From contig JAJYDE010000011.1 of the NCBI GenBank assembly GCA_021777755.1, forward strand, positions 1 through 64,000: a stretch of 64,000 nucleotides of DNA, written 5' to 3'. Below, one piece after another: positions 2,546-18,671 of this stretch (its first letter is position 1; every line of letters starts with the position of its first letter). The notes beneath the pieces were generated by a model, which saw only the letters and a list, made by a program, of their open reading frames with translations, was not told where the DNA came from and did no database searches. The position numbers were made by a program, and so were the translations under genes. Source of the DNA: Deltaproteobacteria bacterium (GTDB lineage Bacteria; Desulfobacterota; Syntrophobacteria; Syntrophobacterales; Syntrophobacteraceae).

Positions 2546-4126
2546 ATGAACAATCACAAGGGCGTGAAGGTGCTTTTGATCGACGATGACCCGGGTATTC
2601 TCAAGGTGATGACTTTGGCGCTCGAAGACGCGGGGCACGAGGTCATTTCGGCGGGTGACGGGATCAGCGGGGTTGATTTGTGTGCCAGCGCCTCTCCCGA
2701 TATTGTGATAACCGATATCCGGATGCCCGGGATAAACGGCATGGAGGTGCTCAAAAGAGTCAAGCAGATGGACCCCGACAAGGAAGTGATCGTGGCCACG
2801 GCCGCCACCGATATGAATTATGCGGTGGAGGCCCTGCGACTTGACGCCTCGGATTTCATCTTGAAGCCGATAAGCGAACAGGCACTTTCGATCGCGATCA
2901 AGCGGGCGCGGGATCGATTCGCCACCCGAAGGGAGCTGAAGGATTACACCGCCCTTATCGAGGAGCGGTGGATGGATACAACCGAAGAGCTGGCCCGGAC
3001 CTTCCAGACTCAAAAGCTTCTGATCGAAAGCTCGATAGACGGAATCATCGCCTGCGACAAGTCGGGCAGGATCATCATTTTCAACAAGAGCATGGGAAAA
3101 ATGCTCGGTTACGCCCGAAAGGAGATGCTCGGGCAAAAGATGATCGACCGGGTGTTTTGCCCCGGCGAGGCCGAAAAGTTTAAAGACGCGCTCGCATCGG
3201 GAAAACATGGCGGCAAGGGCAGACTCTTTTTGCACGAATGCTTTTTTGAAAGCAGGGATGAAACGCGAATTCCGGTGCAGCTTTCGGCTGCTGAAATGGT
3301 CAGGGAAGACGAGCAGGTCGGGTTGGTTTGTTTTGTTCGCGACGAACGCGAGATCCGAAAACTGACGCAGGAAGTGGCCAACCAGGCCAGAATGCTTCAT
3401 CAGGACAAGATGATCTCGCTTGGCAAGCTTGCCGCCAGCGTGGTCCATGAAATCAACAATCCGTTGGCCGGCATTCTCAATTATGCGCGGCTGATGAGCA
3501 AGATACTTTCCCGCGGCGCACCCGGCGCGGAGTCCACTGAAAAGTTCAGCGGCTATCTGGCCCTCATGCAGAGCGAATTGGAACGTTGTGCAAAGATCGT
3601 GGCCAACCTGCTCGCCTTTTCGCGTAAAAGCAAACTGGAGTTCGGCCCGGTGGACCTAAACGAGCTGTTAAGAATCTGCATCAATTTGAGCGGACATAAA
3701 CTGGAGCTTCAAAACATCCGCGTCGATACCCGTCTTGCCCCCGATCTTCCCATGATTCAGGGGGATTTCAGTCAACTGCAGCAGTGCATGATAAACCTGA
3801 TTTTCAATGCGGTGGACGCCATACCCGAGGGGGGAACACTTCTTTTTACCTCCAATTTCGAGGCGGCAAGAAATCTTATCCGCATAACCGTGAAGGACTC
3901 CGGGTGCGGGATCTCCAGGCAGGATCTTCCCTATATTTTCGAACCTTTCTTTACCACCAAAACAGAAGGGAAGGGGGTGGGGCTGGGGCTTTCGACCACC
4001 TACGGCATTATCGACAGGCACAAGGGGACCATCCACGTCAACAGCGAGCCGGGCCGGGGTGCCGAATTCGTCATCGATCTTCCGGTGAGCCCGGCCAATC
4101 CCGCGGACTTAAGCCGAACTTCGTGA
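2546..4126 (+). CDS. Hybrid protein: receiver, PAS, histidine kinase
   Basis: A 526-residue cytoplasmic signalling protein. Residues 5-125 form a CheY-like receiver with the acidic pair D13/D14, phosphoacceptor D57, T85 and K107. Residues 155-280 form a PAS domain. The HisKA box has H301 (VVHEINNPLAG), followed by N, G1 and G2 boxes (NLIFNAVDAI, DSGCGIS, GVGLGLS). The chosen ATG has a GGGAG-type site upstream; the frame is open further up to a TTG at 2456, but those residues resemble no receiver start. The receiver-first order suggests an intermediate in a phosphorelay. There is no membrane segment. Its 3' end overlaps the convergent sigma-54 regulator gene by 56 bases. Confidence 0.88.
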   Translation: MNNHKGVKVLLIDDDPGILKVMTLALEDAGHEVISAGDGISGVDLCASASPDIVITDIRMPGINGMEVLKRVKQMDPDKEVIVATAATDMNYAVEALRLDASDFILKPISEQALSIAIKRARDRFATRRELKDYTALIEERWMDTTEELARTFQTQKLLIESSIDGIIACDKSGRIIIFNKSMGKMLGYARKEMLGQKMIDRVFCPGEAEKFKDALASGKHGGKGRLFLHECFFESRDETRIPVQLSAAEMVREDEQVGLVCFVRDEREIRKLTQEVANQARMLHQDKMISLGKLAASVVHEINNPLAGILNYARLMSKILSRGAPGAESTEKFSGYLALMQSELERCAKIVANLLAFSRKSKLEFGPVDLNELLRICINLSGHKLELQNIRVDTRLAPDLPMIQGDFSQLQQCMINLIFNAVDAIPEGGTLLFTSNFEAARNLIRITVKDSGCGISRQDLPYIFEPFFTTKTEGKGVGLGLSTTYGIIDRHKGTIHVNSEPGRGAEFVIDLPVSPANPADLSRTS

Positions 4127-5441
4127 TTTTGTGGTGTAGAGTGGCCCGATTCATCTCCAGCACCTTCGCCGCCTTCGAGATATTCCAGCGGCAGAGTTTC
4201 AAGATGTGTTCGATATGGTTTTTTTCGACCTCGCGCATGGTGAGCGCCATTTGCTTCTCTTCCGGAGATCTCGAAAGAAAGGCGAAGTCCTCCTTTTGCA
4301 GATATGTGCCCTTTGAGAGCACCACAGCCCGTTCAACGCTGTTTTCCAACTCCCGCACATTGCCGGGCCAGTCGTGGGATTGCAGAAAGAACATGGCGTC
4401 ATCCTTGAACCCCCTTACCCGCTTATTGGTCTCGCGCCGGAATTTTTGCAGAAAATGCTCGGCCAGTTGGGGTATGTCTTCCTTTCGTTTTCGTAAGGGC
4501 GGGACCTCGATTTCGATCACCTTCAGCCGGAAATAGAAGTCTTTGCGGAAACTCTCCCCGGACACTCTTTGGAAAAGGTCCTGGTGGGTGGCCGAAATAA
4601 GCCTGAAGTCCACGCTTAATTCCTTGTTGCCCCCCACCCGGTGGAAAATCTTTTCCTGGAGAACTCGGAGCAGATCGACCTGCATCTTGAGCGGTATCTC
4701 GCCCACCTCGTCGAGGAAAAGGGTGCCGCCCGCGGCCATCTCCAGGCGGCCTATCCGGGTGCGGTTGGCCCCGGTAAAAGACCCCGCTTCATGGCCGAAC
4801 AGTTCGCTTTCAAGAAGCGTGTCTGAAAAGGCCCCGCAATTTATTGCGATAAAAGGTCCTTGCCGGCGGTTGCCGCGGGCGTGGACGGCCTTGGCGACCA
4901 ATTCCTTTCCGGTTCCCGTTTCCCCCTGGAGCAAAATCGGCGAGTCAACCTTGGCAACGAGATCTATGAAGGAAAAAAGGCGCCTCATGCACTCCGAGGA
5001 GCCGATCATGTCATTGTAGCCCGTGGCCTCGCTTAACTGGTTTCGAAGGTAGATGTTTTCCTCGACCAGTTTTTTCTGGTTGAGGAGCTTTTCGACCATC
5101 AATTCCAGTTGCTCGGCTTGGAAGGGCTTCATCAAAAAATCGTCCGCCCCGTTTTTCATGGCCTCGATGGCGGTCTCGATCGATGCGTAGGCGGTTATCA
5201 TGACCACGAGGATGTGGGGGTGGGTGGTCTTGACGGTCTTAAGAGCTTCCAGGCCGCTCAAGTCCGGCATTCTCATGTCGAGGAAAATGAGATCGTAATG
5301 GTTGCGGGAAAGCATGTCGAGCGCCTGCCGGCCCCCCGGGGCCGCATCCACCCCATGCCCCGCCCGCCTCAGCCAGCCGACCAGCGACTCGCGGATAATC
5401 AATTCGTCATCGACAACCAGAATTCGAATCTTTTCGCTCAT
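4071..5441 (-). CDS. NtrC-family sigma-54-dependent response regulator
   Basis: A 456-residue three-domain activator. The receiver (1-125) has D11/D12, D55, T83 and K105. The AAA+ domain (about 145-385) has Walker A GETGTGKE (173-180), Walker B LFLDE (241-245) and the sigma-54 contact loop written GSFTGA (220-225) rather than the usual GAFTGA. The C-terminus has a Fis-type helix-turn-helix (ISKAAKVLEMNRATLHHKI). It starts 8 nt after the upstream kinase gene, so the two are a cognate pair in one operon. Likely target: the divergent sigma-54 promoter near 7314, through palindromes at 7023 and 7197 (inference). Confidence 0.93.
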   Translation of the reverse strand: MSEKIRILVVDDELIIRESLVGWLRRAGHGVDAAPGGRQALDMLSRNHYDLIFLDMRMPDLSGLEALKTVKTTHPHILVVMITAYASIETAIEAMKNGADDFLMKPFQAEQLELMVEKLLNQKKLVEENIYLRNQLSEATGYNDMIGSSECMRRLFSFIDLVAKVDSPILLQGETGTGKELVAKAVHARGNRRQGPFIAINCGAFSDTLLESELFGHEAGSFTGANRTRIGRLEMAAGGTLFLDEVGEIPLKMQVDLLRVLQEKIFHRVGGNKELSVDFRLISATHQDLFQRVSGESFRKDFYFRLKVIEIEVPPLRKRKEDIPQLAEHFLQKFRRETNKRVRGFKDDAMFFLQSHDWPGNVRELENSVERAVVLSKGTYLQKEDFAFLSRSPEEKQMALTMREVEKNHIEHILKLCRWNISKAAKVLEMNRATLHHKITKFGLSPRDWPGSPEDR

Positions 5442-5449
5442 CTTCCCTC

Positions 5450-6958
5450 TCAGCGATCGCCGGGCGCAACGGGAAACCTCAAGATGAAGCGCGACCCGGC
5501 CCCCTCTTCACTTTTGACGTACACCGCGCCGCCGTGCTCCTTGACTATGCCGTAGACAACCGAAAGGCCCAGCCCCACACCCTTGTCGTGGCTTTTGGTG
5601 GAAAAGAAGGGCTCGAAGATCATCGGGATGATTTTCTTGGGGATTCCGGTCCCGTTGTCGATGACCTCCACCCGGATTGTCGAGGGCGACCGGGGGTCCG
5701 GGGAGGTCCTGAGTACCAGTTCGCCTCCCTCGGCCATGGCGTCGGCCGCATTGAAAACAAGGTTCAAAAGGCATTGCTCTATCTGGCTCTGATCTCCGGT
5801 TATAAGCGGGAGGTCCTGCGCCAGTTCGGTCCTGGCCTTTATCGACTGGGAATCGAGGCGAAAACGAACGAAATCGAGCACTCTTTGAATCAGCCCGTTT
5901 ATCTGGAACTCGCTTCGCGCTCCTTTGGCCTGGCGAGAAAAATGGAGCAGATCCCTTACGATGCCGCTGCAACGGGCGGATTCGGAATCGATCAGGTCAA
6001 GGTAATAGATGAATCTTTCTTTCGAGGCCTCATCGGCATCGCCCGATTCGAGTTCCCGGCGCACAAGCCGGGCCAGAGCATTGATGCCCGTAAGCGGATT
6101 GTTTATCTCGTGGACCGCGCTGGCCGCCATCTGGCCAAGAGATATCATCTTCTCTTCGTAGACAAGCCTCATGAGGTCTTTTTTTAGGGCGGAGACCTTC
6201 TGCTCCACCTTCTGTTGCATTTCGTCCGTGATATCGCGAAATATTTCAACGACCAGCTCTATCCGACCGCCGGCGGTCTTGAGGGGGACCGCGGTGATTT
6301 CGTGGTAGCGGTCCGAACCCGAGCCCGCGATCCCTTCCAAAATCGCATGAGCGACCTCCCCGGTCTCAAGGCAGCGCGCAACCGGGCAATAGAACCCTTC
6401 GGCGTGGCACCGGGCGGGAGAGCCGTAGGCCACCTCATGGCAATATTTGCCCACCATGTCGTCTTTGCTCATGCGCACGGCGTTGAGAAAGGCCTCGTTG
6501 GCGTCGTGGACCTTGAGGTCGGGCTGCATGACCAGCACCCAGTCGCGAAGGCCCAGGAAAAGACCCTCCATAATGCCTTCGACGAGGTTGATCTGGCGCT
6601 CGGCGAACTGGTATTCCTCGCTCAGGCAAAGAACATCTCCGAAAATCCGGGATATCGCCGATTCCAGCACCCGCACACTGGCCGGCTTGCGCCTAAGAAA
6701 ATCCTCCAGCAATTCCGCCTTGCCGGTCAGCTCTATGACCAGATCGAGGTCTTTGATCTTGTAGAAGTCTTCGTAATCGGTTGTGACAAAAATCTTCTTC
6801 TCACGGGCAAGACGGATACCGGGAGCTTCGAGATCGGGATCGGCGACCGCCACGATTTCAGCCCCCAGCTTGGGGAAGCGCAGTGCGTCGAACATCTCCA
6901 GAAACGCCCGGCAGCGTTTGCTCCCTCCGATTATCCCGATTTTCATCGGCGTTTCCAT
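5450..6958 (-). CDS. Histidine kinase with N-terminal Rossmann-like domain and PAS
   Basis: A 502-residue soluble sensor kinase. Residues 5-110 resemble the dinucleotide-binding domain of GFO/IDH/MocA or homoserine-dehydrogenase-type enzymes: glycine-rich turn GIIGGS, strand VAVADPD ending in D40 (an acidic residue there usually favours NAD over NADP), and LVIELTGKAE. A PAS domain (about 125-245) holds four cysteines, C173, C184, C191 and C196. The HisKA box has H283 (AVHEINNPL), followed by N and G boxes ending near GVGLGLS. The ATG at 6958 is preferred because the predicted promoter and palindrome at 7023-7060 lie upstream of it; the frame is open to 7060. Ligand binding by the N-terminal domain is inferred. 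Confidence 0.87.
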   Translation of the reverse strand: METPMKIGIIGGSKRCRAFLEMFDALRFPKLGAEIVAVADPDLEAPGIRLAREKKIFVTTDYEDFYKIKDLDLVIELTGKAELLEDFLRRKPASVRVLESAISRIFGDVLCLSEEYQFAERQINLVEGIMEGLFLGLRDWVLVMQPDLKVHDANEAFLNAVRMSKDDMVGKYCHEVAYGSPARCHAEGFYCPVARCLETGEVAHAILEGIAGSGSDRYHEITAVPLKTAGGRIELVVEIFRDITDEMQQKVEQKVSALKKDLMRLVYEEKMISLGQMAASAVHEINNPLTGINALARLVRRELESGDADEASKERFIYYLDLIDSESARCSGIVRDLLHFSRQAKGARSEFQINGLIQRVLDFVRFRLDSQSIKARTELAQDLPLITGDQSQIEQCLLNLVFNAADAMAEGGELVLRTSPDPRSPSTIRVEVIDNGTGIPKKIIPMIFEPFFSTKSHDKGVGLGLSVVYGIVKEHGGAVYVKSEEGAGSRFILRFPVAPGDR

Positions 6959-7022
6959 AGGCGACCCCGCTGCAAGTTGTACGGTCCCAAAGGGTGAAAA
7001 GAGCTCTGAGAGAAATAACCAC

Positions 7023-7039
7023 TGTATAAGATTTATACA
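7023..7039. promoter_or_regulatory. Palindromic operator, copy 1
   Basis: TGTATAA-GAT-TTATACA, perfect 7-bp arms with a 3-bp centre. The same arms and spacing recur at 7200-7216. It overlaps the predicted -10 of the kinase/regulator pair, which fits autoregulation by the NtrC-type protein. Assignment of the binding protein is inference. Confidence 0.65.
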
Positions 7040-7060
7040 CAAAATTATTCGGCCCGACAA
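7032..7060 (-). promoter_or_regulatory. Predicted sigma-70 promoter of the kinase/regulator pair
   Basis: On the minus strand, TTGTCG (7060-7055) and TATAAA (7037-7032) are separated by 17 bases. The -10 element lies inside the palindrome at 7023-7039, so occupancy of that site would be expected to block this promoter. Transcription would start near 7025, about 67 nt before the chosen ATG. Confidence 0.5.
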
Positions 7061-7196: not shown

Positions 7197-7219
7197 TGTT
7201 GTATAAAATTTATACAACA
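7197..7219. promoter_or_regulatory. Palindromic operator, copy 2 (candidate upstream activator site)
   Basis: A perfect inverted repeat with 11-bp arms around one central base; its core is TGTATAA-AAT-TTATACA, identical in arms and spacing to the site at 7023. It lies about 95 bp upstream of the sigma-54 promoter at 7314, a usual distance for an NtrC-family enhancer site. Confidence 0.7.
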
Positions 7220-7313: not shown

Positions 7314-7329
7314 TGGCAGGCATCTTGCG
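7314..7329 (+). promoter_or_regulatory. Sigma-54 (RpoN) promoter for the Hdr operon
   Basis: TGGCAGG-CATC-TTGCG matches the -24/-12 consensus TGGCACG-N4-TTGCW at 10 of 12 specified positions, and the invariant GG and GC (7315-7316, 7327-7328) are exactly 10 bases apart. Transcription would start near 7340, about 175 nt before the first gene. No competing sigma-70 promoter was recognised. Confidence 0.72.
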
Positions 7330-7514: not shown

Positions 7515-10500
7515 ATGCGTCCAAGGATCGGGTTTTATATCTGCCATTGTGGAACGAACATAGCCGGAAAAGTCGCGGTGGGCGAAGTTCGCGACTTTGT
7601 GGGGGAGCATTCGAAAAACGTGGTCGTTGCCCGCGACTACAAATTCATGTGCTCGGATCCCGGCCAGGAGATGATCCAGAAAGACATAAGAGAACTGGGT
7701 CTAAACCGGGTGGTTGTGGCTTCGTGTTCTCCGAGGCTTCATGAGAAGACTTTCCAAAACGCCTGCGGGCGGGCGGGGCTGAATCCCTACTTTTTCCAGA
7801 TGGCCTGCGTTCGGGAACATTGCTCCTGGGTCACCTCGGATCCGGGCGAAGCCACCGCCAAGGCTAAAAGCCTGGCTTCGGCCGCGGTCAGCCGGGTCAA
7901 TTTTCACGAGACCCTTTTCAGCCGGGAAGTCTCCGTAAACCCCGACGTACTGGTCGTCGGGGCGGGAATCTCGGGCATCCAGGCCTCCCTGGACATTGCG
8001 AAATCGGGCTGCAAGGTCCACCTCGTGGAAAGGGAGCCTTCGATTGGCGGGCACATGGTCCAGTTCGACAAGACCTTCCCGACCCTTGACTGTGCGGCGT
8101 GCATTTCGACGCCCAAGACCGTCGCGGTGGCCCAGAGCCCCGGCATAGATCTTTTGAGCTACAGCGAAGTGACGGAAGTAAAGGGATATGTTGGAAACTT
8201 CACCGTCAAGGTGCGCCGCAAGCCTCGCTATGTAATGGAAGATAAATGCACGGGGTGCGGCCTGTGTGCCGAGCACTGCCCGGTTTCAGTTCCCAACGAG
8301 TTCGACGAAAAGCTGAGTGAGCGAAAAGCGGTCTACCGGTTTTTTCCCCAGGCGGTGCCCATCACCTTCGCGATCGAAAAGAAGGACCCCGCGCCCTGCA
8401 AGATGAGTTGCCCGGCCGGGGTTAATATTCAGGGCTATACGCAACTGATAGGGCTTGGCAAATACAGGGAAGCCGTTGAACTGATCATGGAGAAACTGCC
8501 TTTGCCGGGTGTTTTGGGCAGGGTTTGTCCGCATGTTTGCGAATCGAACTGCCGCAGAACGCAAATCGATTCGCCGATTTCGATCCGGGAGCTCAAACGC
8601 TTTGCGGCCGACCGGGTGATGGCCGAAGAGATCGGTGTTCCGCGGATCGAAGACAGGCCCGAGCGGGTGGCGGTGATCGGTTCGGGGCCGGCCGGGCTTA
8701 CGGCCGGCTATTATCTGAGGCTCAAAGGCTACGGGGTCACAATTTTCGAGGCCCTGAGCGCCCCCGGGGGAATGCTCAAAGTCGGAATCCCCGACTACCG
8801 GCTTCCTCCCGAGGTTTTGGACCGGGAGATAAATAATATCCTGCGGTTGGGGATAAGCCTTGAAACCGGAAAACGGCTGGGGGTGGATTTCACCCTCGAC
8901 GACCTTAGGCAACGGGGATTCAAGGCCATTTTCATAGGCATCGGGGCGCACAAGCCGCTAAAGATGAACATCGGCGGCGAGCGGGATTTGAGCGGAGTTA
9001 TCCAGGCCACCGATATTTTGCGGCAAACAAGCCTCGGGGCCCGCAAGGCTCCCGGGGAGCGGGTGCTTATCCTGGGCGGGGGCAACGTGGCCGTGGATGC
9101 GGCCAGAACGGCGCTGCGCCTTGGCAGCAAAGAGGTGATGATCGTCTACCGCAGGACCCGCGAGGAGATGCCCGCGTACGCGGAAGAAATCGAGGATGCG
9201 CTCCTTGAAGGGATAAAGATCAGCTATCTTACCGCGCCCGTGGCCGTGGAGGGTTCGGATGGAAAAGTCACCGGGCTCCATTGCATAAAGACCGCGCCCG
9301 GCCCGGCCGACGAGTCCGGCCGCAGGCGACCAATCGTGCGGGAGGGAAGCGACTTTGTAATCCCGTGCGACGCGATCATTTTCGCCATCGGGCAGGAGCC
9401 CGACACGGACTGCTGTATCGCTTCGGGGCTCGAAGTCGGCAGGCGCGGCCGCATTACGGCTTCATCGCGCTGCGGGCAAACCTCCTCGCCTGATGTTTTC
9501 GCCGCCGGAGACGCGGTGATCGGGCCTGCGACCGTGATCGAAGCGGTCGGCGCGGCCCGTGAAGCCGCCGAGGCGATCGACCGGTATTTGCGCGGTGAAC
9601 CGGTCGAATCGACGGAGTCCGAAAGGACGAGTGAAAACGGGGGAAACTGGCGCGAAATCCCCAAGAAGGCTCCGCGCCTTCCCAGAGCTTCGGTCAACCG
9701 GATAGATCTCGATGCGGCAAAGACTTCGTTTGCCGAAGTAAGCCTTGGCATCTCGGAGGATGCGGCCAGGACCGAGTCGGCCAAGTGCCTCAATTGCGGG
9801 GTTTGCTCCGAATGCATGGAGTGCGTACGGGCCTGCGAGCGATCCGCCATAGATCATTCCATGAAGGCCGAGGAAATCGAACTGCGGGTGGGCTCGATCA
9901 TCCTTGCCACCGGCTTTGACACCATGGACGCTTCGGTCTTTACAAATTACGGGTACGGTCGTTTTGAAAACGTCTATACCGGGCTCGAATTTGAAAGACT
10001 CAACAACGCGGTGGGGCCCACCGGCGGGCAAATCGTCATGAAAAACGGCAAGAAGCCCGAAAGTGTGGCCATAATTCACTGCGTCGGGAGCCGCGACGCG
10101 GGTCATAACGCCTACTGTTCGCGGGTCTGCTGCATGTACGCTCTGAAATACGGCCACCTCATAAAGGAAAAGGCGGGGCACGACACCCGGGTTCACAACT
10201 TCTACATCGACATGAGGTGTTACGGAAAGGGCTACGAGGAGTTCTACAGGCGTCTTCAGGAGGAGGGGGTCAACTTCGTTCGGGGTAGACCCGCCGAGAT
10301 CCGGGAGGAAGTGTCGGCCTCGGGTGAAAAGAAACTGATCGTCATAGGCGAGGATACGCTCCTCGGGCGCCTGGTACGGCTTCCGGTGGACATGGTGGTC
10401 CTTTGCACCGCGATCGAGGCCCGCGGCGACGCTTCCGAGGTGGCCCGCATTTTTGGAATAAGCCAGGGCGGAGACGGCTTTTTCCTGGAGGAGCACCCGA

Positions 10501-10889
10501 AGCTGGGACCGGTTTCCACGCCCACCGACGGGATTTTTCTGGCCGGTGTCTGCCAGGGGCCAAAAGACATCCCCGACGCCGTGTCTCATGCCTCGGGGGC
10601 CGCGGCCCAGGCCCTTGCCCTTTCGACAAGGGGCAAAGTGGAGGTCTCACCGGTCACCTCGCTGATAGATCCCGACATATGCATCGGGTGCCAAATCTGT
10701 ATCAAACTCTGCCCCTATTCGGCCATCGAGTTCAACGGGCGAAAGGGCATTTCGGAGGTAAACGAGGCGGTCTGCAAGGGCTGCGGAAGTTGCGCGGGTT
10801 TTTGCCCGAGCGGGGCTGCGCGTGTAAAGCATTTTGCCCCGAAGCAGGTGTTTGCGGAAATAGAGGGAATTCTGGACGAAGTGGTTTAG
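7515..10889 (+). CDS. hdrA: HdrA-like flavoprotein with inserted GltD/NfnB-type domain
   Basis: A 1124-residue predicted electron-transfer flavoprotein. Residues 1-140 are the HdrA N-terminal domain (YICHCGTNI; CSPRLHEKTF). The first FAD half begins at GAGISG (149), with the HdrA signature TLDCAAC, then a ferredoxin cluster (CTGCGLCAEHCP). From about C295 to 695 an entire GltD/NfnB-like module is inserted: CKMSCP and RVCPHVCESNC Fe-S motifs, GSGPAG and GGGNVA nucleotide sites, and a FAAGD strand. HdrA then resumes with a cysteine cluster (from C758), the second FAD half, and two C-terminal 4Fe-4S motifs (C1056, C1087). GltD modules usually bind FAD and NAD(P)H, so this subunit probably links NAD(P)H to the Hdr complex. 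Large HdrA-GltD fusions in sulfate reducers have been called HdrL. First gene of the operon; weak AGG ribosome site. Confidence 0.9.
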   Translation: MRPRIGFYICHCGTNIAGKVAVGEVRDFVGEHSKNVVVARDYKFMCSDPGQEMIQKDIRELGLNRVVVASCSPRLHEKTFQNACGRAGLNPYFFQMACVREHCSWVTSDPGEATAKAKSLASAAVSRVNFHETLFSREVSVNPDVLVVGAGISGIQASLDIAKSGCKVHLVEREPSIGGHMVQFDKTFPTLDCAACISTPKTVAVAQSPGIDLLSYSEVTEVKGYVGNFTVKVRRKPRYVMEDKCTGCGLCAEHCPVSVPNEFDEKLSERKAVYRFFPQAVPITFAIEKKDPAPCKMSCPAGVNIQGYTQLIGLGKYREAVELIMEKLPLPGVLGRVCPHVCESNCRRTQIDSPISIRELKRFAADRVMAEEIGVPRIEDRPERVAVIGSGPAGLTAGYYLRLKGYGVTIFEALSAPGGMLKVGIPDYRLPPEVLDREINNILRLGISLETGKRLGVDFTLDDLRQRGFKAIFIGIGAHKPLKMNIGGERDLSGVIQATDILRQTSLGARKAPGERVLILGGGNVAVDAARTALRLGSKEVMIVYRRTREEMPAYAEEIEDALLEGIKISYLTAPVAVEGSDGKVTGLHCIKTAPGPADESGRRRPIVREGSDFVIPCDAIIFAIGQEPDTDCCIASGLEVGRRGRITASSRCGQTSSPDVFAAGDAVIGPATVIEAVGAAREAAEAIDRYLRGEPVESTESERTSENGGNWREIPKKAPRLPRASVNRIDLDAAKTSFAEVSLGISEDAARTESAKCLNCGVCSECMECVRACERSAIDHSMKAEEIELRVGSIILATGFDTMDASVFTNYGYGRFENVYTGLEFERLNNAVGPTGGQIVMKNGKKPESVAIIHCVGSRDAGHNAYCSRVCCMYALKYGHLIKEKAGHDTRVHNFYIDMRCYGKGYEEFYRRLQEEGVNFVRGRPAEIREEVSASGEKKLIVIGEDTLLGRLVRLPVDMVVLCTAIEARGDASEVARIFGISQGGDGFFLEEHPKLGPVSTPTDGIFLAGVCQGPKDIPDAVSHASGAAAQALALSTRGKVEVSPVTSLIDPDICIGCQICIKLCPYSAIEFNGRKGISEVNEAVCKGCGSCAGFCPSGAARVKHFAPKQVFAEIEGILDEVV

Positions 10890-10910
10890 TCCGTTTCATT
10901 GGAGGAACAA

Positions 10911-11333
10911 ATGGGCGATTACGAGCCTACAATCATCGCTTTTGTCTGCAACTGGTGCACATACACGGCCGCGGATCTCGCCGGGACCTCGCGGCTTGTT
11001 CAGCCTGCGAACGTGCGCATGGTGCGCATGATGTGCACCGGGATGGTCGATCCCAAATACATTATCAAGGCGCTTCTGGAGGGGGCCGACGCGGTTTTGG
11101 TGAGCGGCTGCCATCCGGGCGACTGCCACTACATAAACGGCAATCTCAAGGCCAGGCGCAGGATGAAGCTTTTAAAGGAAATCCTTCCGAAGTTCGGCTT
11201 TGACGAACGAAGGCTCAAGATGACCTGGATCGGTGCCAGCGAGGGAATCGATTTTGCGGAGACGGTAAGACAGATGACGGCCGAAGTAAAAGCGCTCGGC
11301 CCAAACGATTTGCGCACCCGGATGGTGTTGTAG
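10911..11333 (+). CDS. mvhD: MvhD-like 2Fe-2S electron-transfer subunit
   Basis: 140 residues from the ATG, which follows a strong GGAGG site; an in-frame TTG lies 12 bases upstream. The MvhD cysteines are visible: C13 and C16 (FVCNWC), C42 (MMCTG), C67 and C72 (SGCHPGDC). In methanogen Mvh-Hdr complexes this subunit carries a 2Fe-2S cluster between the electron-input module and HdrA. It lies 21 nt after the HdrA-GltD gene and 28 nt before the FrhB-like gene, consistent with one complex. Confidence 0.92.
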   Translation: MGDYEPTIIAFVCNWCTYTAADLAGTSRLVQPANVRMVRMMCTGMVDPKYIIKALLEGADAVLVSGCHPGDCHYINGNLKARRRMKLLKEILPKFGFDERRLKMTWIGASEGIDFAETVRQMTAEVKALGPNDLRTRMVL

Positions 11334-11361: not shown

Positions 11362-12513
11362 ATGTCCAAGATAGGGAAAATAACCGTAAAGGACCGTGAT
11401 ACGGTCTCTTCGCTGCAGGATTTCCTCAAACTGCTGCTGCAAAAGGGAGCTGTCGAGGCGGTGCTGGTCCAGCAGCGGCTTGCGATCAATAACGCTGTCA
11501 TGCCCGCGCTGATTACCGATATCGAAAACCTTGGCCAGGCCGATCCCCTTGCCCCGGCTTTTGCTCTAAACGGCGCCAGGATGCTCTCCCGGCTTACCCG
11601 AAAGCCCCTGGATGCGCCCATCGCCGCGGTAATGCGCCCCTGCGAAATAAGGGCTTTTGTCGAACTTGTGAAATTGAAGCAGGGCAGCGTCGACAATGTC
11701 ATTTTGATCAGCGCGGACTGCCTCGGGGCCTATCCCAATAACGACTACGCCAAGGTTGCGGGCATGGGGGCGGGCGCCGAATCGACGCTTTCCTTCTATC
11801 GCAACATCATTTCGGGGAAAGGAACGGCTGCGCAGGACGCGGACATCTCCCCGGCCTGCAAATCCTGCGAGCATCCCGCGGCGGTCAATGCCGATATAAC
11901 GATCGGGCTTCTGGGAACGAACATGGAGGAAAATCTGCTCCTTATCGCCAATACGCCAAAGGGGGAAAAGCTTTTGGCCGATCTGGGGGTAAAGGTTGAA
12001 GACGAACCGCTCGATGGCAGGAAAAGCGCTCTGGACGCCCTGGTGGGCGAGCGGATCGAGTATCGGGACCGGATGTTTGCGCGCACCTCCGAGGCGGTCT
12101 CAAGCGTTGAAAAGCTCATGGGTTATCTGCGCGCATGCGTCAACTGCCACAACTGCCGGGTGGCCTGTCCGGTGTGCTATTGCCGGGAGTGTGTCTTTAC
12201 TACCGACGTCTTCGACCATGAGCCGGCGCAATATCTGCGTTGGGCCAAACGCCGAGGCGCTCTCAAGATGCCGACCGATACCGTTTTCTTTCACCTTACG
12301 CGCCTGGCCCACATGAGTGCGGCCTGCATCGGCTGCGGGCAGTGTTCGAACGCCTGCCCCAACGACGTGCCGGTGATGGAGCTGTTTCGCACCGTGGCCC
12401 ACGGAGTCCAGGGGGCCTTCGGCTATGGCGCGGGTGCAAGTTTGGAAGACGAGCCGCCCCTGTCCGTATTCCACGAGAAGGAATTCTGCGAGGTGACGGG
12501 TGGACACGATTAG
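11362..12513 (+). CDS. FrhB/FdhB-like iron-sulfur flavoprotein
   Basis: A 383-residue homologue of the coenzyme F420 hydrogenase / formate dehydrogenase beta family. The FrhB-type centre is seen in VMRPCEIRAFVELVKL and SADCLGAYPNNDY, with an extra cysteine pair (CKSCEH). Two C-terminal 4Fe-4S motifs follow: C259 (CVNCHNCRVACP) and C322 (CIGCGQCSNACP), plus CYCREC. Family members bind FAD and pass electrons between a nicotinamide, F420 or ferredoxin partner and Fe-S clusters. Which substrate is used here cannot be read from the sequence. Cotranscribed with the Hdr genes. Confidence 0.85.
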   Translation: MSKIGKITVKDRDTVSSLQDFLKLLLQKGAVEAVLVQQRLAINNAVMPALITDIENLGQADPLAPAFALNGARMLSRLTRKPLDAPIAAVMRPCEIRAFVELVKLKQGSVDNVILISADCLGAYPNNDYAKVAGMGAGAESTLSFYRNIISGKGTAAQDADISPACKSCEHPAAVNADITIGLLGTNMEENLLLIANTPKGEKLLADLGVKVEDEPLDGRKSALDALVGERIEYRDRMFARTSEAVSSVEKLMGYLRACVNCHNCRVACPVCYCRECVFTTDVFDHEPAQYLRWAKRRGALKMPTDTVFFHLTRLAHMSAACIGCGQCSNACPNDVPVMELFRTVAHGVQGAFGYGAGASLEDEPPLSVFHEKEFCEVTGGHD

Positions 12514-12570: not shown

Positions 12571-15500
12571 ATGGAGACAAAAACCGGGCGAGCCCTGGTG
12601 ATCGGGGCCGGGATCAGTGGAATCCGGTCGGCCCTGGACCTGGCGGAAATGAATTACCGAGTTTATTTGATAGATAAATCACCGCACATCGGGGGGATCC
12701 TCAGCCAACTCGACTATCAATTCCCGACCGATCACTGCGGCATGTGCAAGATGCTCCCCACGATCGGGCGCGATGCTTCGTCCCAGTTCTGCCTGAGAAA
12801 GGGGCTGTTTCACGAAAATATCGAAGTGCTGCCCGGAACCGAGATGATCGCGCTCGAGGGCGAGCCCGGAAATTTCAAGGCCACCCTGGACTCGGCGCCC
12901 ACCTTCATCGATCCGGAAAAGTGCATCGGCTGCGGGCTGTGCTCGGCGCCTTGCCCTGTCAGCTTGCCCGATACATTCAACGGGGGGCTTGCGAAGCGAA
13001 AAGCGGTCCATCTTCCGGTCCCGCACAATATTCCAAACCGCTATACGATCGATATGGCGGCATGCACCCGGTGCGGGGAATGCGAAAAGGTGTGCCCGAC
13101 GGGGGCGATCGACCTGAAAACCGAGGCCAGGCGCGCATTTAAAATCCTGGTGGTCGATGATGAACTGGTGGTACGCGATTCCTTGAAGGAATGGCTCGTG
13201 GTCGAAGGCTTCAGCGTCGATATGGCCGATTCGGGGGCCGAAGCAATAGATCTTGTCTCCGCAAATGAATACGGCCTCGTGCTTCTCGACGTCAAGATGC
13301 CCGGAATGGACGGGGTCGAGGCCCTCCAGATCATAAGGGAGATGAAACCCGATTTGCCCGTTTTGATGATGACCGCCTACGCCACGGTGGAAACCGCGGT
13401 CCAGGCGATGAAAATCGGGGCCGCCGAATATCTCATGAAGCCCTTCGACATCGAGGCCCTCAACGCCAAGGTCGTTCAGCAGTATGAAAGCACGGTGGCC
13501 GTAAAGGGCCGCGTGATCGAGGTCGGAGCGGTCATCATGGCTACGGGTTCGGATTTTTGCGATCCGGCGAAAATCCCCGGCGCCTTCGGCTACGATTATC
13601 CAAACGTTGTGACCGGCTTGCAGTTCGAACGGATTGTGAGCGGTTCGGGGCCCGGTGCGGGAAAACTCGTTCGCCCCTCGGATGGAAAGCCCGCCAGAAA
13701 AATAGCCTTCCTCCAGTGCGTCGGATCGAGGGATCTCAAGCAAAAGGCGGATTACTGCTCTTCGGTGTGCTGCATGTTTTCCATAAAGGAAGCCCTTTTG
13801 GCCAAAGCCAAATCGGGGGGCGAAGCCGATACGGCCATCTTTTACATGGACATGCGAACCTTCGGCAAAGATTTCCAGCGCTACCGCGATTCGGCGGAAA
13901 AAGAATCGGGGGTTCGCTTTATAAGAAGCCGCATTCATACGGTCGAACCCGATATCGATGGAAGGCTGAGTCTGCATTACGTTGACGGCGAAGGGGCCAT
14001 GGTCGAGGAAATCTTCGATCTGGTGGTCCTGGCCGCCGGGCAAAGAGCCTCCAAAGGGGCGAGAGAGCTTGCCCGATCGGCCGGAGTGGAGCTCAATCCC
14101 GCCGGTTTTTGCCGCACAGACGAACTCTTTCAAAGTAAAAGCAGCCGGGAGGGCGTTTTTGCGGGGGGGGCCATTTCGGGACTGAAAGACATCTCCGAAT
14201 CGGTTATTCAGGCCGGTTCGGCCTCCCTTGAAGCCTCGCGGCTCATTCGCTCGAAGGGCGGAACCTCGCGGCCGCCCGAGCCGAAGGGCGCCCTTTTCAA
14301 GGATTCATCCAGGGATTTGCCCCGGCTCGCCGTGGCTCTTTGCGCCTGCGCAAGCTCGCTTGCCGGCGGCCTGGATCTGGAAGCCCTGGGCGCGGCCCTT
14401 TCCCGGTGGGACCCTTCGATCCGCGTGTTGCAAACCGAGCGGGTCTGTACGCTTGCCGGCAAAAAATCGCTTTTGGACAGCTTGCGGGACACCGGCTGCA
14501 ACATGATTTCCATCGGGGCCTGCATGCCATGCCTCTACGGGAAGATGCTCCTCGATCTGGCAAGAGAAACGGGGCTTTCTCCCGGACTCATGGATGTGGT
14601 CGACATATACACTCCGGCCTTCGGGCGCGGGGGGCAGGCCGAGGCCCGGGTCCAAACGGCGATGAAAATGTCGATTGAAAGGCTCAAAGGCGCCGATCCG
14701 GCCCCCGGCCGGTCATTTAACATCATTCGAAAAGCGCTCGTGATCGGAGGCGGGATTTCCGGTTTGACCGCGGCGCTGGCCATAGCCGACCACGGCTTCA
14801 AGGTCGATTTGGTTGAAAAGGAAGCCGATCCGGGCGGGCTTGTCCGCGCAATAGGCAGCACCATCGAAGGGGTTGCCACTTCCGGGGTGCTTGGCAGGCT
14901 GGTCTCCGGGGTCCGGGCCAATTCGAATATTTCCCTCCACACGGGAGCCGAGGTTGTCGGCTCGAAGGCTTATCAAGGCCTGAGTTTTCTTACCACGATC
15001 AAGACCGGCGACGGGGAGACAAAACAGATCGATCACGGGGTGACGATTTTGGCCACAGGGGGCAAAGAAGCCGCGACGCGCGAATACGGTTTCGGCCAAA
15101 GCGGGTCGGTGGTGACCCAGCACGAGCTGGAGGGGCGCCTTGGAAACGGGGGTGCCGTCGGCCTCGGGGTTGTCGCCATGATCCAGTGCGTCGGTTCGCG
15201 CGAGGAAGGCAGAAATTATTGCAGCCGGATCTGCTGTCAGACGGCGCTGAAAAACGCCTTGCGCATCAAGAAGGATAACCCGGAGGCCAAAGTCTACATT
15301 TTCTACCGCGACATCATGACCTATGGTTTTCTCGACGCCTACTACACGAAGGCCAGGCAGGAGGGAGTCATTTTTATCCGGTATTCGCGGGACGCAAAAC
15401 CCGAGGTGACTATCGGGGAGGGCGGGAAGGTCACAATTGTCACCCGCGATCCGATTCTGGGTAGAGATATCGCCATAGAACCCGATCTGCTGGTCCTCGG

Positions 15501-15978
15501 TACGGGGCTTGCTCCAAACGATTTGGGGCGATTGGGGGAATATTTCGGCTTCGAGGTAAACGAAGACGGGTTTTTCCGGGAGGCCGAATACAAATGGCAG
15601 CCCGTTGACTCGAAAAAACGCGGGGTATTCGCCTGTGGCGTGGCGCACTCCCCCCGCTCGATTTCCGAGTCGATTGCAATGGCTCAGGCCGCGGCCCAAC
15701 GAGCGCTCGTAATGCTCAACCGGGATGTGGTCGAGGCCGGCAGCGTGGTCGCCAGGGTGCGCCACGGCCTCTGTTCTCTTTGCGAAAGATGCATTTCGGC
15801 CTGTCCTTACGGCGCGCGGAGTCGGAACGAAGAAAACGATCGGATCGAAATCGACGAACTCGCTTGCCAGGGATGCGGCGCCTGTGCGGCTGTTTGTCCC
15901 AACTCCGCCTCGGTTGTGCGGGGATTTGGCGACCGGCAGGTCATGGCCATGGTCGATGCGGCCCTGGAACTTATTTGA
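12571..15978 (+). CDS. hdrA: Tandem HdrA-like protein with embedded CheY-like receiver
   Basis: 1135 residues. It lacks the usual HdrA N-terminal domain and opens with the FAD turn VIGAGISG, then PTDHCGMCKMLP, a ferredoxin cluster at C118 and another at C165 (CTRCGECEKVCP). Residues about 189-305 are a complete response-regulator receiver: D196/D197, phosphoacceptor D240 (VLLDVKMPG), T268 and K290 (LMKPF). HdrA resumes at EVGAVIMATG. A degenerate HdrA-N-like stretch (about 585-700, CACASSL, GACMPC) precedes a second FAD module (GGGISG from 726) and two C-terminal 4Fe-4S motifs (from C1068). The frame is uninterrupted, so the receiver is part of the protein. Role: predicted flavin and Fe-S core of the HdrABC complex; control by phosphorylation is inferred. 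GC content and codon use look continuous with the flanks. Confidence 0.92.
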   Translation: METKTGRALVIGAGISGIRSALDLAEMNYRVYLIDKSPHIGGILSQLDYQFPTDHCGMCKMLPTIGRDASSQFCLRKGLFHENIEVLPGTEMIALEGEPGNFKATLDSAPTFIDPEKCIGCGLCSAPCPVSLPDTFNGGLAKRKAVHLPVPHNIPNRYTIDMAACTRCGECEKVCPTGAIDLKTEARRAFKILVVDDELVVRDSLKEWLVVEGFSVDMADSGAEAIDLVSANEYGLVLLDVKMPGMDGVEALQIIREMKPDLPVLMMTAYATVETAVQAMKIGAAEYLMKPFDIEALNAKVVQQYESTVAVKGRVIEVGAVIMATGSDFCDPAKIPGAFGYDYPNVVTGLQFERIVSGSGPGAGKLVRPSDGKPARKIAFLQCVGSRDLKQKADYCSSVCCMFSIKEALLAKAKSGGEADTAIFYMDMRTFGKDFQRYRDSAEKESGVRFIRSRIHTVEPDIDGRLSLHYVDGEGAMVEEIFDLVVLAAGQRASKGARELARSAGVELNPAGFCRTDELFQSKSSREGVFAGGAISGLKDISESVIQAGSASLEASRLIRSKGGTSRPPEPKGALFKDSSRDLPRLAVALCACASSLAGGLDLEALGAALSRWDPSIRVLQTERVCTLAGKKSLLDSLRDTGCNMISIGACMPCLYGKMLLDLARETGLSPGLMDVVDIYTPAFGRGGQAEARVQTAMKMSIERLKGADPAPGRSFNIIRKALVIGGGISGLTAALAIADHGFKVDLVEKEADPGGLVRAIGSTIEGVATSGVLGRLVSGVRANSNISLHTGAEVVGSKAYQGLSFLTTIKTGDGETKQIDHGVTILATGGKEAATREYGFGQSGSVVTQHELEGRLGNGGAVGLGVVAMIQCVGSREEGRNYCSRICCQTALKNALRIKKDNPEAKVYIFYRDIMTYGFLDAYYTKARQEGVIFIRYSRDAKPEVTIGEGGKVTIVTRDPILGRDIAIEPDLLVLGTGLAPNDLGRLGEYFGFEVNEDGFFREAEYKWQPVDSKKRGVFACGVAHSPRSISESIAMAQAAAQRALVMLNRDVVEAGSVVARVRHGLCSLCERCISACPYGARSRNEENDRIEIDELACQGCGACAAVCPNSASVVRGFGDRQVMAMVDAALELI

Positions 15979-15990
15979 AAGGCGAATCCA

Positions 15991-16560
15991 ATGGCTCAAA
16001 ATCAAGCCTCGGCAGGTTCAACCATTCCCGATCGGGGTATGTTTGCGCAAATTTCCAAAAACCTAAGGGCGTGCATGCAGTGCGGGACCTGCACGGGTTC
16101 GTGCGGCAGCGCCGCGAGAATGGAGCATACGCCCCGGCAGCTCTGGCGGATGGTGCAGGCGGGTATGAAGGACGAAATATTTAAGAGCCGCACCTTCTGG
16201 CTCTGTTCGAGCTGCTATTACTGCACCCTGCGGTGCCCTCGGGGGTTGCCGCTTACCGACACGATGGCGGCGCTCAAAAGGGTGGCTGTGGCCGAAGGCT
16301 ATACAACCGACCGCAAAAGTGCGCCTTTCTACAAGGCCTTTCTCGATAGCGTGCGCAAATACGGCCGGGTGAGGGAATCCGAAATGATGGCCAGGTACTT
16401 CCTCGCGGTTAAAAACCCCGCGGTTCCGTTGAGTTTCGTTCCGCTGGGCATGAAGCTCATGGCCAGGGGGAAAATGGATCTTCATATGCCGGGCTTCGGC
16501 GGGCGGGGAAAACTCGACAGGCTCTATCGAAAAGTCATGGAACTGGAGGCTGCGAAGTGA
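15991..16560 (+). CDS. hdrC: HdrC-like iron-sulfur subunit
   Basis: 189 residues with two 4Fe-4S motifs, C28/C31/C34/C38 (CMQCGTCTGSC) and C72/C75/C78/C82 (CSSCYYCTLRC), as in the HdrC ferredoxin subunit of heterodisulfide reductase. It relays electrons between HdrA and the HdrB catalytic site. It starts 12 nt after the tandem HdrA gene, and its stop overlaps the GTG of hdrB. No membrane segments, so this is the soluble HdrABC type rather than HdrDE. Confidence 0.92.
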   Translation: MAQNQASAGSTIPDRGMFAQISKNLRACMQCGTCTGSCGSAARMEHTPRQLWRMVQAGMKDEIFKSRTFWLCSSCYYCTLRCPRGLPLTDTMAALKRVAVAEGYTTDRKSAPFYKAFLDSVRKYGRVRESEMMARYFLAVKNPAVPLSFVPLGMKLMARGKMDLHMPGFGGRGKLDRLYRKVMELEAAK

Positions 16561-17456
16561 GGTACTTTTACTACCCTGGATGTTCGCTCCAACACTCGGC
16601 AAAAGAGTACGACATTTCGACGCGGGCTCTCATGCGGCTTCTCGGCCATGAACTGATGGAGGTCGACGATTGGACGTGCTGCGGGGCGAGCGCGGCGGAC
16701 ACTTCGAGCAGGCTGCTCTCGATCGCCTTGCCCGCCCGTAACCTCGCTTTGGCGCAAAAGTCGGGTGTTTCGGCCGATATTCTGGTCCCCTGCAGCTCCT
16801 GTTATCTCAACTTGCGAAGAGCCGAGGATGCGATGAGCCGTGAGAGTGGAACGGCCGATCTCGTAAACCGGGCGCTTTCCGAGGAGAGTCTTTCCTATTC
16901 CGGAGGCGCGAGGGTAAGACACCTGCTGGACGTTTTGGCAAACGACATGGGCGCGGGCCCGATAGCGGCCGGTCTAAGGCACAGTCTTTCGGGCCTTTCC
17001 GTTGTCCCCTACTATGGATGCCAGGCCCTGCGCCCTTTTGCCGATTTCGACGACCCCGAGCGGCCCCGTTCCATGGATGCGCTCATCGCCGCCACCGGGG
17101 CGAGCGTATTCGATTGGAACATGGGAGCGAAATGTTGCGGCGCGGGCCTTATGACCACCAAAAAGGAGCTGTGCCTGGACCTGGTGGCCGATATTCTCGA
17201 TGACGCAAAAGGCGCGGACTGTATCGCCACGGTCTGCCCGATGTGCCAAATGAACCTGGAGACCAGCCAGAAAAGGATTTCCAAGATGCGGGGAAGGCCC
17301 CTGGAGATATCGATTGTCTACCTGCCGCAGCTCCTGGGCTTCAGCCTCGGGCTGCCCGAGGCGGGGCTGCGATTGGGCTTGAACCTGGCCTTGACGCGCT
17401 CCTTCACGGGGCGTCTGGCTGCCATGTCAAAACAGATTGCTGCGCCGGGTCGCTAG
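16557..17456 (+). CDS. hdrB: HdrB-like catalytic subunit (two CCG domains)
   Basis: 299 residues with GTG start in a GTGA overlap with hdrC. Two CCG domains: C9 with C41/C42 and C79/C82 (CCGASA, PCSSC), and C155 with C193/C194 and C227/C230 (CCGAGL, VCPMC). In methanogens this pattern holds two noncubane 4Fe-4S clusters that reduce CoM-S-S-CoB. In bacteria the acceptor is different and unknown; a thiol-disulfide or similar acceptor is usual speculation. Last enzyme gene before the kinase at 17559. Confidence 0.92.
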   Translation: MRYFYYPGCSLQHSAKEYDISTRALMRLLGHELMEVDDWTCCGASAADTSSRLLSIALPARNLALAQKSGVSADILVPCSSCYLNLRRAEDAMSRESGTADLVNRALSEESLSYSGGARVRHLLDVLANDMGAGPIAAGLRHSLSGLSVVPYYGCQALRPFADFDDPERPRSMDALIAATGASVFDWNMGAKCCGAGLMTTKKELCLDLVADILDDAKGADCIATVCPMCQMNLETSQKRISKMRGRPLEISIVYLPQLLGFSLGLPEAGLRLGLNLALTRSFTGRLAAMSKQIAAPGR

Positions 17457-17558
17457 GGACGGCGCCCGCAGAGGCTGGAAGCATGGTTTGCCGAGCCGGG
17501 TGGCGAGGCGAACCTTATCTTTCAGGCCGAGGGTTCCGGCGGTGCGATGGAGACAAGC

Positions 17559-18671
17559 ATGTGCGCGGCCGTGCGAAAAAGGCTCGAAGAACAGGTGGGA
17601 AGAAGCGAGAAAAAGTACCGGGAGCTTTTTAACAACATCCCCAATCCCGCCTTCGTCCTTGACCGGGACCTAAAAATCCTCGACTGCAACGACATGGTTT
17701 TCGGCGTATACGGCTTCCGAAAAGAAGACCTTTTGCGGCAGCCCTTTACAGATCTTTTCGAGCCCGAAGAAAGCCGCGATTTTGCAAAAGAGATAAGACT
17801 CGCGGGAACCATGAAGGAGGTGCGCCACCTCACCCGTTACGGCCCGGTCATATACGTAAACATCCGGGTATGCCGTTACAGATACGCCTCCGATGCGGCC
17901 TTCCTGGTCACTACGAGCGATATTACCAAAAGACTGCTGGTCGAACAACAGCTCGTTCAGGCAGGCAAGATGGCCACCCTTGGCGAGATGGCCACCGCCA
18001 TCGCCCACGAACTCAATCAGCCTCTTTCGGTAATGAAGACGGCGAGCAGCTTCATAGTAAACAAGATAAGAAAAGGCGAAAAGATAAGGGAAGAAACTCT
18101 TGAAACGATGGCCGGGGAAATCGACAGCCACGTGGACAGGGCTTCAGCCATTGTCTATCACCTGCTGGAATTCGGACGCAAATACCCGGTCGAAAGAGAA
18201 CCGGTCGATGTCAATGAGGCCCTCCGAAGGTCTCTTGTCCTTTTCATGCAGCAGCTAAGGCATAGAGGCATCGAGGTGGAAAAGGATTTCGAAGCCGATC
18301 TGCCAACGGTTTCAGCCGTTGGCAACAGGCTGGAGCAGGTCTTCATAAATCTTCTCGTAAACGCCCGGGACGCTATCGAGGACAAATTCGAAAAAGCGGT
18401 CCACTCCCCGGAGAAGAAAATCTTTTTAAGAACGCGCTTTTGGGAAGGAAAAGTTCGCATCGAGGTGGGAGATACCGGGATTGGAATCCCCAAGCCGCTT
18501 CTTGAAAAGATCTTCGAGCCGTTCTTTACCACAAAACGGGTTGGAAAGGGCACCGGCCTTGGTCTTTCCATAAGTTGCGGGATCGTCCAGGACTACGATG
18601 GAACCCTCGAGGTCGCGACCCGCGAAAATGAGGGATCAACTTTTATCATAACCTTTCCGGCTTCGAGTTGA
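17559..18671 (+). CDS. PAS-domain histidine kinase at the end of the Hdr operon
   Basis: About 370 residues. A short coiled N-terminus leads to a PAS domain ([21 protein letters not shown]), then a HisKA box ([10 protein letters not shown]), an N box ([12 protein letters not shown]) and G boxes (DTGIGIP, GTGLGLS). No membrane segment and no receiver. The ATG at 17559 has GGAG six bases upstream; another in-frame ATG is at 17547. It lies 102 nt after hdrB on the same strand, so it is probably the last gene of the operon. Candidate partners are the sigma-54 regulator and the receiver inside the tandem HdrA (inference). Confidence 0.88.

Follow-up and report, generated by a model that had tools for sequence, protein, structure and literature searches.

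HdrA of the methanogen HdrABC complex, as represented by the structures 5odc, 8rvu, 7bkb and 9sfi, combines an N-terminal iron-sulfur (Fe-S) domain, a flavin adenine dinucleotide (FAD) domain with a Lys/Glu pair, and both an inserted and a C-terminal ferredoxin domain. The Lys/Glu pair, K409/E356 in 5odc numbering, has been proposed as a mark of bifurcating flavins (PMC12054007). Low-potential electrons leave the solved Hdr complexes through the inserted ferredoxin domain, at which MvhB docks, and the states of a mobile arm are thought to gate electron transfer (PMC9012536, PMC12350162). In this paper, we have analysed a stretch of 64,000 nucleotides from a deltaproteobacterium of the family Syntrophobacteraceae (contig JAJYDE010000011.1 of assembly GCA_021777755.1; hereafter the window), in which one gene encodes a protein, HdrA-REC, that has all of these domains, but distributes them over two FAD lobes of a single chain and carries a response-regulator receiver right after the inserted ferredoxin domain. 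The comparison of this protein and its locus with their relatives supports a phospho-receiver that is under selection, and whose most likely role is to control the exit of low-potential electrons at the inserted ferredoxin domain.

The type II tandem HdrA and the fused HdrA 3/4 of anaerobic methanotrophic archaea (ANME) and methanogens (PMC12054007, PMC9012536) also have a pair of thioredoxin-reductase domains, and resemble HdrA-REC further in the complementary placement of the N-terminal domain and Cys197, and in a gene cluster with HdrBC, MvhD and FdhB. The lobe order of HdrA-REC is, however, reversed relative to the description of HdrA 3/4 (PMC9012536), the likeness being one of architecture, and neither of these two papers mentions a receiver. 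Type III HdrA, which includes HdrA 9-11 with a GltD (NfnB) insertion and HdrL of Desulfobacterium autotrophicum, likewise has an insertion at the inserted ferredoxin domain, but there the insert is a catalytic NAD(P)H module, whereas that of HdrA-REC is a signalling domain; a partner gene in the window, at 7515-10889, is of this type III kind. Compared by description, locus VIII of D. autotrophicum HRM2 (hdrL-fdhB-hdrA4-hdrCB), published in 2009 (PMC2702500), is apparently the same gene cluster, and as far as that text shows, a receiver in HdrA4 is not mentioned.

Discussions of how bifurcating enzymes are controlled mostly concern gene expression or the supply of substrate; in HdrA-REC, a recognised phosphorylation switch is located within the path of the electrons. 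Response regulators with an enzymatic output, such as CheB and PleD, have their receiver at the end of the chain, and their enzyme is itself a signalling one; they share with HdrA-REC the union of receiver and enzyme in one chain, but the receiver of HdrA-REC lies within a redox core that conserves energy. Full-text searches of open-licence papers turned up no description of a receiver in HdrA; insertions at the inserted ferredoxin region (GltD/NfnB) are known, and so are receiver-enzyme fusions, and within that literature their combination is new. A two-component phosphorelay acting on the low-potential branch of a bifurcating enzyme would, if true, be a new class of response-regulator output, and cells may in this way turn an energy-conserving enzyme up or down directly, beyond gene expression.

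Anatomy of HdrA-REC and its receiver

A preliminary description of the window, made from the sequence alone, had proposed an uninterrupted 1135-codon frame holding a complete CheY-like receiver (residues about 189-305, with D196/D197, D240, T268 and K290) between the second ferredoxin motif and the second half of the first FAD domain of a tandem HdrA. All of this is borne out: the gene is a single open frame with an ATG start, and both the receiver and its position agree with the searches, alignments and structure model described below. The chain is organised as follows.

12571-15978, + strand: HdrA-REC, tandem HdrA with embedded receiver, 1135 residues (Pfam, NCBIfam, alignment to solved HdrA, predicted structure)
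12571-12894, + strand: lobe 1, first half of the FAD domain of thioredoxin-reductase type, residues 1-108, with C59 as the equivalent of HdrA Cys197 (5odc alignment)
12898-13128, + strand: inserted ferredoxin domain, residues 110-186, with two CxxCxxCxxxC motifs, C118-C128 and C165-C175 (Pfam, 5odc alignment)
13138-13482, + strand: receiver domain, residues 190-304 (PF00072, E 1.8e-31; secondary structure)
13288-13290, + strand: codon of D240, the predicted phospho-acceptor (alignments)
13516-14265, + strand: lobe 1, second FAD half, residues 316-565, with E353 and K406 as equivalents of 5odc E356/K409 (5odc alignment; PMC12054007)
14320-14715, + strand: lobe 2, HdrA N-terminal Fe-S domain, residues 584-715 (alignment to 5odc residues 2-181 and to 9sfi)
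14728-15720, + strand: lobe 2, second FAD domain, which lacks both an inserted ferredoxin and Cys197, residues 720-1050, with E854 and K894 (alignment to solved HdrA)
15748-15909, + strand: C-terminal ferredoxin domain, residues 1060-1113 (Pfam, 5odc alignment)

The whole chain is confidently predicted by AlphaFold (pLDDT 86.9, pTM 0.87). It has the FAD-binding thioredoxin-reductase fold together with the inserted and C-terminal ferredoxin domains of an HdrA, its HMMER profile match to 5odc has an E of 1.9e-173, the best Foldseek matches are all HdrA, with methanogen HdrA first, and HdrB, HdrC, MvhD and FdhB-like genes accompany it in the window as well as in relatives. Its scores fell short of the cut-offs of the NCBIfam HdrA equivalogs NF040770, NF041778 and NF041891 (658 bits against 1100, the others lower), and HdrA-REC is therefore none of these named methanogen-type HdrAs. 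As in type II tandem HdrA (PMC12054007), two thioredoxin-reductase domains share one chain. In the 5odc alignment, lobe 1 has C59 and the inserted ferredoxin domain, and lacks the N-terminal Fe-S domain and the C-terminal ferredoxin; lobe 2 has the latter two, and lacks Cys197 and an inserted ferredoxin domain. The sole inserted ferredoxin domain of the chain is hence the one bearing the receiver. The Lys/Glu pair, mapped by hand from the same alignment, is present in both lobes (K406/E353 and K894/E854).

The receiver matches PF00072 (Response_reg) at residues 192-301 with 109 bits, over profile positions 1-110 of 111. D196, D197, D240, T268 and K290 take the canonical acceptor-site places of the (beta-alpha)5 fold, and the AlphaFold model contains a complete receiver of this fold at residues 191-309. 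Residues 8-186 of the protein, i.e. the first half of the thioredoxin-reductase fold with the inserted ferredoxin domain, correspond to residues 146-314 of 9sfi; the alignment breaks off there and restarts in the second half of the FAD fold, where residues 312-316 correspond to 315-319 of the reference, and the receiver therefore stands where the reference has a linker of a few residues. Set against 80 other receivers encoded in the same loci, those of HdrA show hardly any variation, in a family-specific manner, at F190, S204, K206, W208 and E212, and also in a stretch of helix 4 (V273, T275, M280 and G283). Helix 1 of a receiver is a usual contact with the kinase. The near invariance of helix 1 and its flanking positions is consistent with a dedicated partner, which would explain it; packing against HdrA would explain it as well.

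Distribution, conservation and decay of the receiver

A scan of 84,980 species genomes, from which the best 80 loci were taken for comparison, revealed at least about 70 homologues that share the receiver-HdrA architecture, almost all of them in Desulfobacterota. Since these come from independent assemblies, including complete genomes, an assembly join as the cause of the fusion is excluded, and so is a one-off insertion in this assembly, which the preliminary description had named as a result that would speak against it. Twenty-five genomes near the window's own, itself counted in, had matches that outscored the receiver-less paralogues, mostly over the full length, and the set of D196, D197, D240, T268 and K290 was found in every nearby genomic relative readable at the acceptor site. 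Of 118 genomes drawn evenly from the phylum, three besides the window had full-length receiver-bearing matches, and the family is therefore patchy. Defining a receiver as intact when all five residues are present, we found 62 intact rows among the best 80 loci (63 with the window), mostly from Desulfobacterales and Syntrophobacteraceae, including Desulfonema magnum and Desulfoferrobacter suflitae, two carriers of the gene that exist in culture.

In the intact set, the mean pairwise identity is 0.689 for the receiver, 0.710 for the first FAD half, 0.619 for the inserted ferredoxin domain and 0.355-0.590 for the rest. Within the genus group of the window, the ratio of nonsynonymous to synonymous substitution rates (dN/dS) is 0.09 for the receiver and 0.05-0.195 for the redox domains. 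Outside Desulfovibrionales, the five acceptor residues hardly vary, and by these sequence measures the conservation of the receiver equals that of the redox core.

The exceptions at the acceptor site are few, namely seven receivers of Desulfovibrionales type (L067, L070, L071, L074, L091, L094 and L104) plus L068 and L100. A degenerate acceptor, the other outcome that the preliminary description had held would tell against it, is confined to this group and a few single relatives, and is found neither in the window protein nor in its clade. In a tree built without the receiver columns (FastTree local support; L097, cut before the receiver, left out, and L087 classed as degenerate solely through its cut contig), a branch with 100% support separates all receiver-bearing sequences from seven receiver-less relatives, and the seven degenerate receivers form a clade (100%) nested within the intact clade (96%). 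This nesting favours one insertion with later decay, and suggests that the acceptor site was lost secondarily in Desulfovibrionales. The receiver identity in the degenerate clade is 0.490, whereas every other domain is at 0.587-0.808, above its value among the intact sequences, as the closer relationship within this clade would predict; judged from these values, the relaxation of selection is confined to the receiver. The two homologues with damaged acceptor sites outside Desulfovibrionales lie singly on short cut contigs (L100:6257-8200 and L068:3-3005), and are possibly independent decays.

Kinase linkage and the proposed control of the enzyme

Three genes of the window bear on how the receiver might be phosphorylated or by what regulator it might be accompanied.

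17547-18671, + strand: HK2, a PAS-HisKA-HATPase histidine kinase, candidate phosphodonor (domain search, locus comparison)
5450-7060, - strand: HK1, another histidine kinase, which begins with a Rossmann-like domain and is oriented divergently to the operon (domain search)
4071-5441, - strand: NtrC-type sigma-54 activator, whose receiver is the closest to that of HdrA-REC in this genome (domain search)

Both kinases had been pointed out before, at 5450 and 17559; the start of HK2 is corrected here to 17547. HK2 belongs to a PAS-HisKA-HATPase family, in which most relatives have about 770 residues, with a HAMP domain and an N-terminal sensor part. With class cut-offs (scores, 5 kb) that were chosen after inspection of the loci, a kinase of this family was found downstream, in the same orientation and at most 5 kb away, in 29 of the 45 intact loci with enough sequence, and elsewhere in the locus in another three. 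The linkage was seen in none of six degenerate loci and in none of five receiver-less relatives, the contrasts giving Fisher p values of 0.004 and 9e-5, uncorrected for kinship among related, non-independent genomes. As HdrC and HdrB are retained in all six degenerate loci, only the kinase is missing there. The possibility that genomes with degenerate receivers are devoid of HK2-family kinases was rejected, since such kinases were found elsewhere in them, which indicates that the linkage was lost rather than the kinase family. Linkage as a general property of Hdr operons was rejected too, as the receiver-less HdrA loci of the same genome have no HK2-family kinase at a comparable score.

We estimate a probability of roughly 0.6 that phosphorylation of the embedded receiver directly controls the bifurcating enzyme. 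In the proposed mechanism, a histidine kinase, with HK2 as the best candidate and HK1 as the second, would phosphorylate D240, upon which the receiver would change its conformation; this would affect either how the mobile C-terminal ferredoxin cluster and an outside electron acceptor dock, or how the inserted ferredoxin domain moves. Because its ends are anchored at the inserted ferredoxin domain on one side and the FAD fold on the other, the receiver would be well placed to change docking, access or motion. Electron splitting would thereby be switched at the enzyme, in parallel to transcription via the neighbouring sigma-54 regulator. The narrower proposal, that D240 phosphorylation changes the coupling of ferredoxin reduction and a sensor kinase thus sets the electron split in real time, is a tentative one, to which we give slightly less than even odds. 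The suggestion in the preliminary description that phosphorylation may directly gate electron flow is in part supported: the conservation across the family and the position beside the inserted ferredoxin domain fit a control of electron flow, and in the comparison of loci the acceptor is almost invariant wherever a kinase of the one family is linked, and the receiver has decayed as a unit in the clade that lacks this linkage. The operon itself contains a candidate kinase, and Desulfovibrionales, with their decayed switch, provide a natural control group.

Several observations weigh against direct control. In 13 of the 45 intact loci, a kinase of the HK2 family is absent from the stretch compared, HK2-like kinases occur elsewhere in these genomes, those of Desulfovibrionales included, and some receiver-less HdrA loci (L120 and L121 among them) lie near receivers or near histidine kinases of other families. 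Furthermore, the decay is essentially that of one clade, so the co-loss of acceptor and linkage counts as one event, and it is possible that the kinase was gained in other lineages rather than lost in Desulfovibrionales.

The flow of information might also be the reverse, with the receiver as a docking or phosphate-sink module that recruits a kinase, which would read the redox state of the enzyme, or the flux through it, and inform the sigma-54 regulator, the activity of the enzyme being unchanged. Transcriptional regulators and several hybrid kinases are indeed present in the same loci, and the HdrA receiver is most like that of the neighbouring NtrC-type protein (45% identity), so one kinase could serve both; but the receiver lies within the catalytic chain and is joined to the redox core at either end, where a mere tether would be unusual, and we consider this reading rather unlikely. 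That the receiver is a spacer, which sets the position of the inserted ferredoxin domain or keeps free ferredoxin away irrespective of phosphorylation, finds some support in Desulfovibrionales, where the fold is retained after the loss of the acceptor site, which argues for some phosphate-independent role, and a structural contribution at least there. A spacer, however, would need neither the five acceptor residues kept across families nor a conservation above that of redox domains, and we judge it unlikely as a general explanation.

Labelling by acetyl phosphate is established for other response regulators, and acetyl phosphate or a similar compound could phosphorylate the receiver without a dedicated kinase and so report the energy status. 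Although intact loci without a linked HK2-family kinase exist, a kinase is linked in the majority, and the acceptor site has decayed where the linkage is absent, which makes this route very improbable. Direct control of the enzyme by a kinase is the reading that we prefer.

The operon and its neighbours

The remaining genes of the operon are the following.

7515-10889, + strand: HdrA with a GltD/NfnB-like domain inside its inserted ferredoxin domain, 1124 residues (Pfam, NCBIfam)
10899-11333, + strand: MvhD/FlpD subunit (PF02662, E 3.8e-52), absent from the simple gene list
11362-12513, + strand: FdhB/FrhB-like iron-sulfur subunit (PF04432; FdhB of 9t1s, E 3.8e-30)
15991-16560, + strand: HdrC (TIGR03290, E 1.9e-26)
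16557-17456, + strand: HdrB with two CCG domains (PF02754, E 1.7e-25; TIGR03288)

From the FdhB-like gene through HdrA-REC, HdrC and HdrB to HK2, the successive gaps are 57, 12, -4 and 90 bases. As predicted from its genes, the operon has the full set of subunits of an Hdr-type bifurcating complex, and the GltD-like domain suggests NAD(P)H as an electron partner, by analogy with the systems described in PMC12054007. This context recurs in relatives: among the intact loci with enough flanking sequence, the GltD-containing HdrA, the FdhB-like gene and MvhD are each found upstream in 33 of 35, and HdrC plus HdrB downstream in 34 of 46. In several loci, the GltD-containing HdrA is preceded by an HdrD-like protein of about 775 residues with two Fer4 and two CCG domains (L081:2634-4964 and L050:2647-4959), which may link the complex to the membrane. 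Many loci also have, after HK2, a receiver-HATPase protein of about 400 residues with hardly any HisKA match (L079:17273-18457 and equivalents), which could be part of the same relay.

HK1 (here 5450-6958, - strand) has an N-terminal stretch (MKIGIIGG...) with a weak match, below cut-off, to the NAD-binding domain of homoserine dehydrogenase (E 0.0066), and relatives of this kinase are found in L038, L043, L061 and L117; it could be a kinase sensing NAD(P)(H). Between the divergent genes, inspection by eye showed two boxes resembling palindromes, TTGTATAAAATTTATACAA at 7197-7218 and TGTATAAGATTTATACA at 7022-7040, which are possible operator sites. A -24/-12-like element, TGGCAGGCATCTTGCG, at 7314-7329 lies upstream of the operon, facing the sigma-54 activator; a scan of the window for sigma-54 promoters gave matches at no more than chance frequency, and a sigma-70 scan yielded nothing useful. 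Lastly, paralogous HdrA frames of the same genome (L003, L006 and L008, on G000:C16 and C44) are interrupted by a single TGA, which lies near a conserved cysteine region and perhaps encodes selenocysteine.

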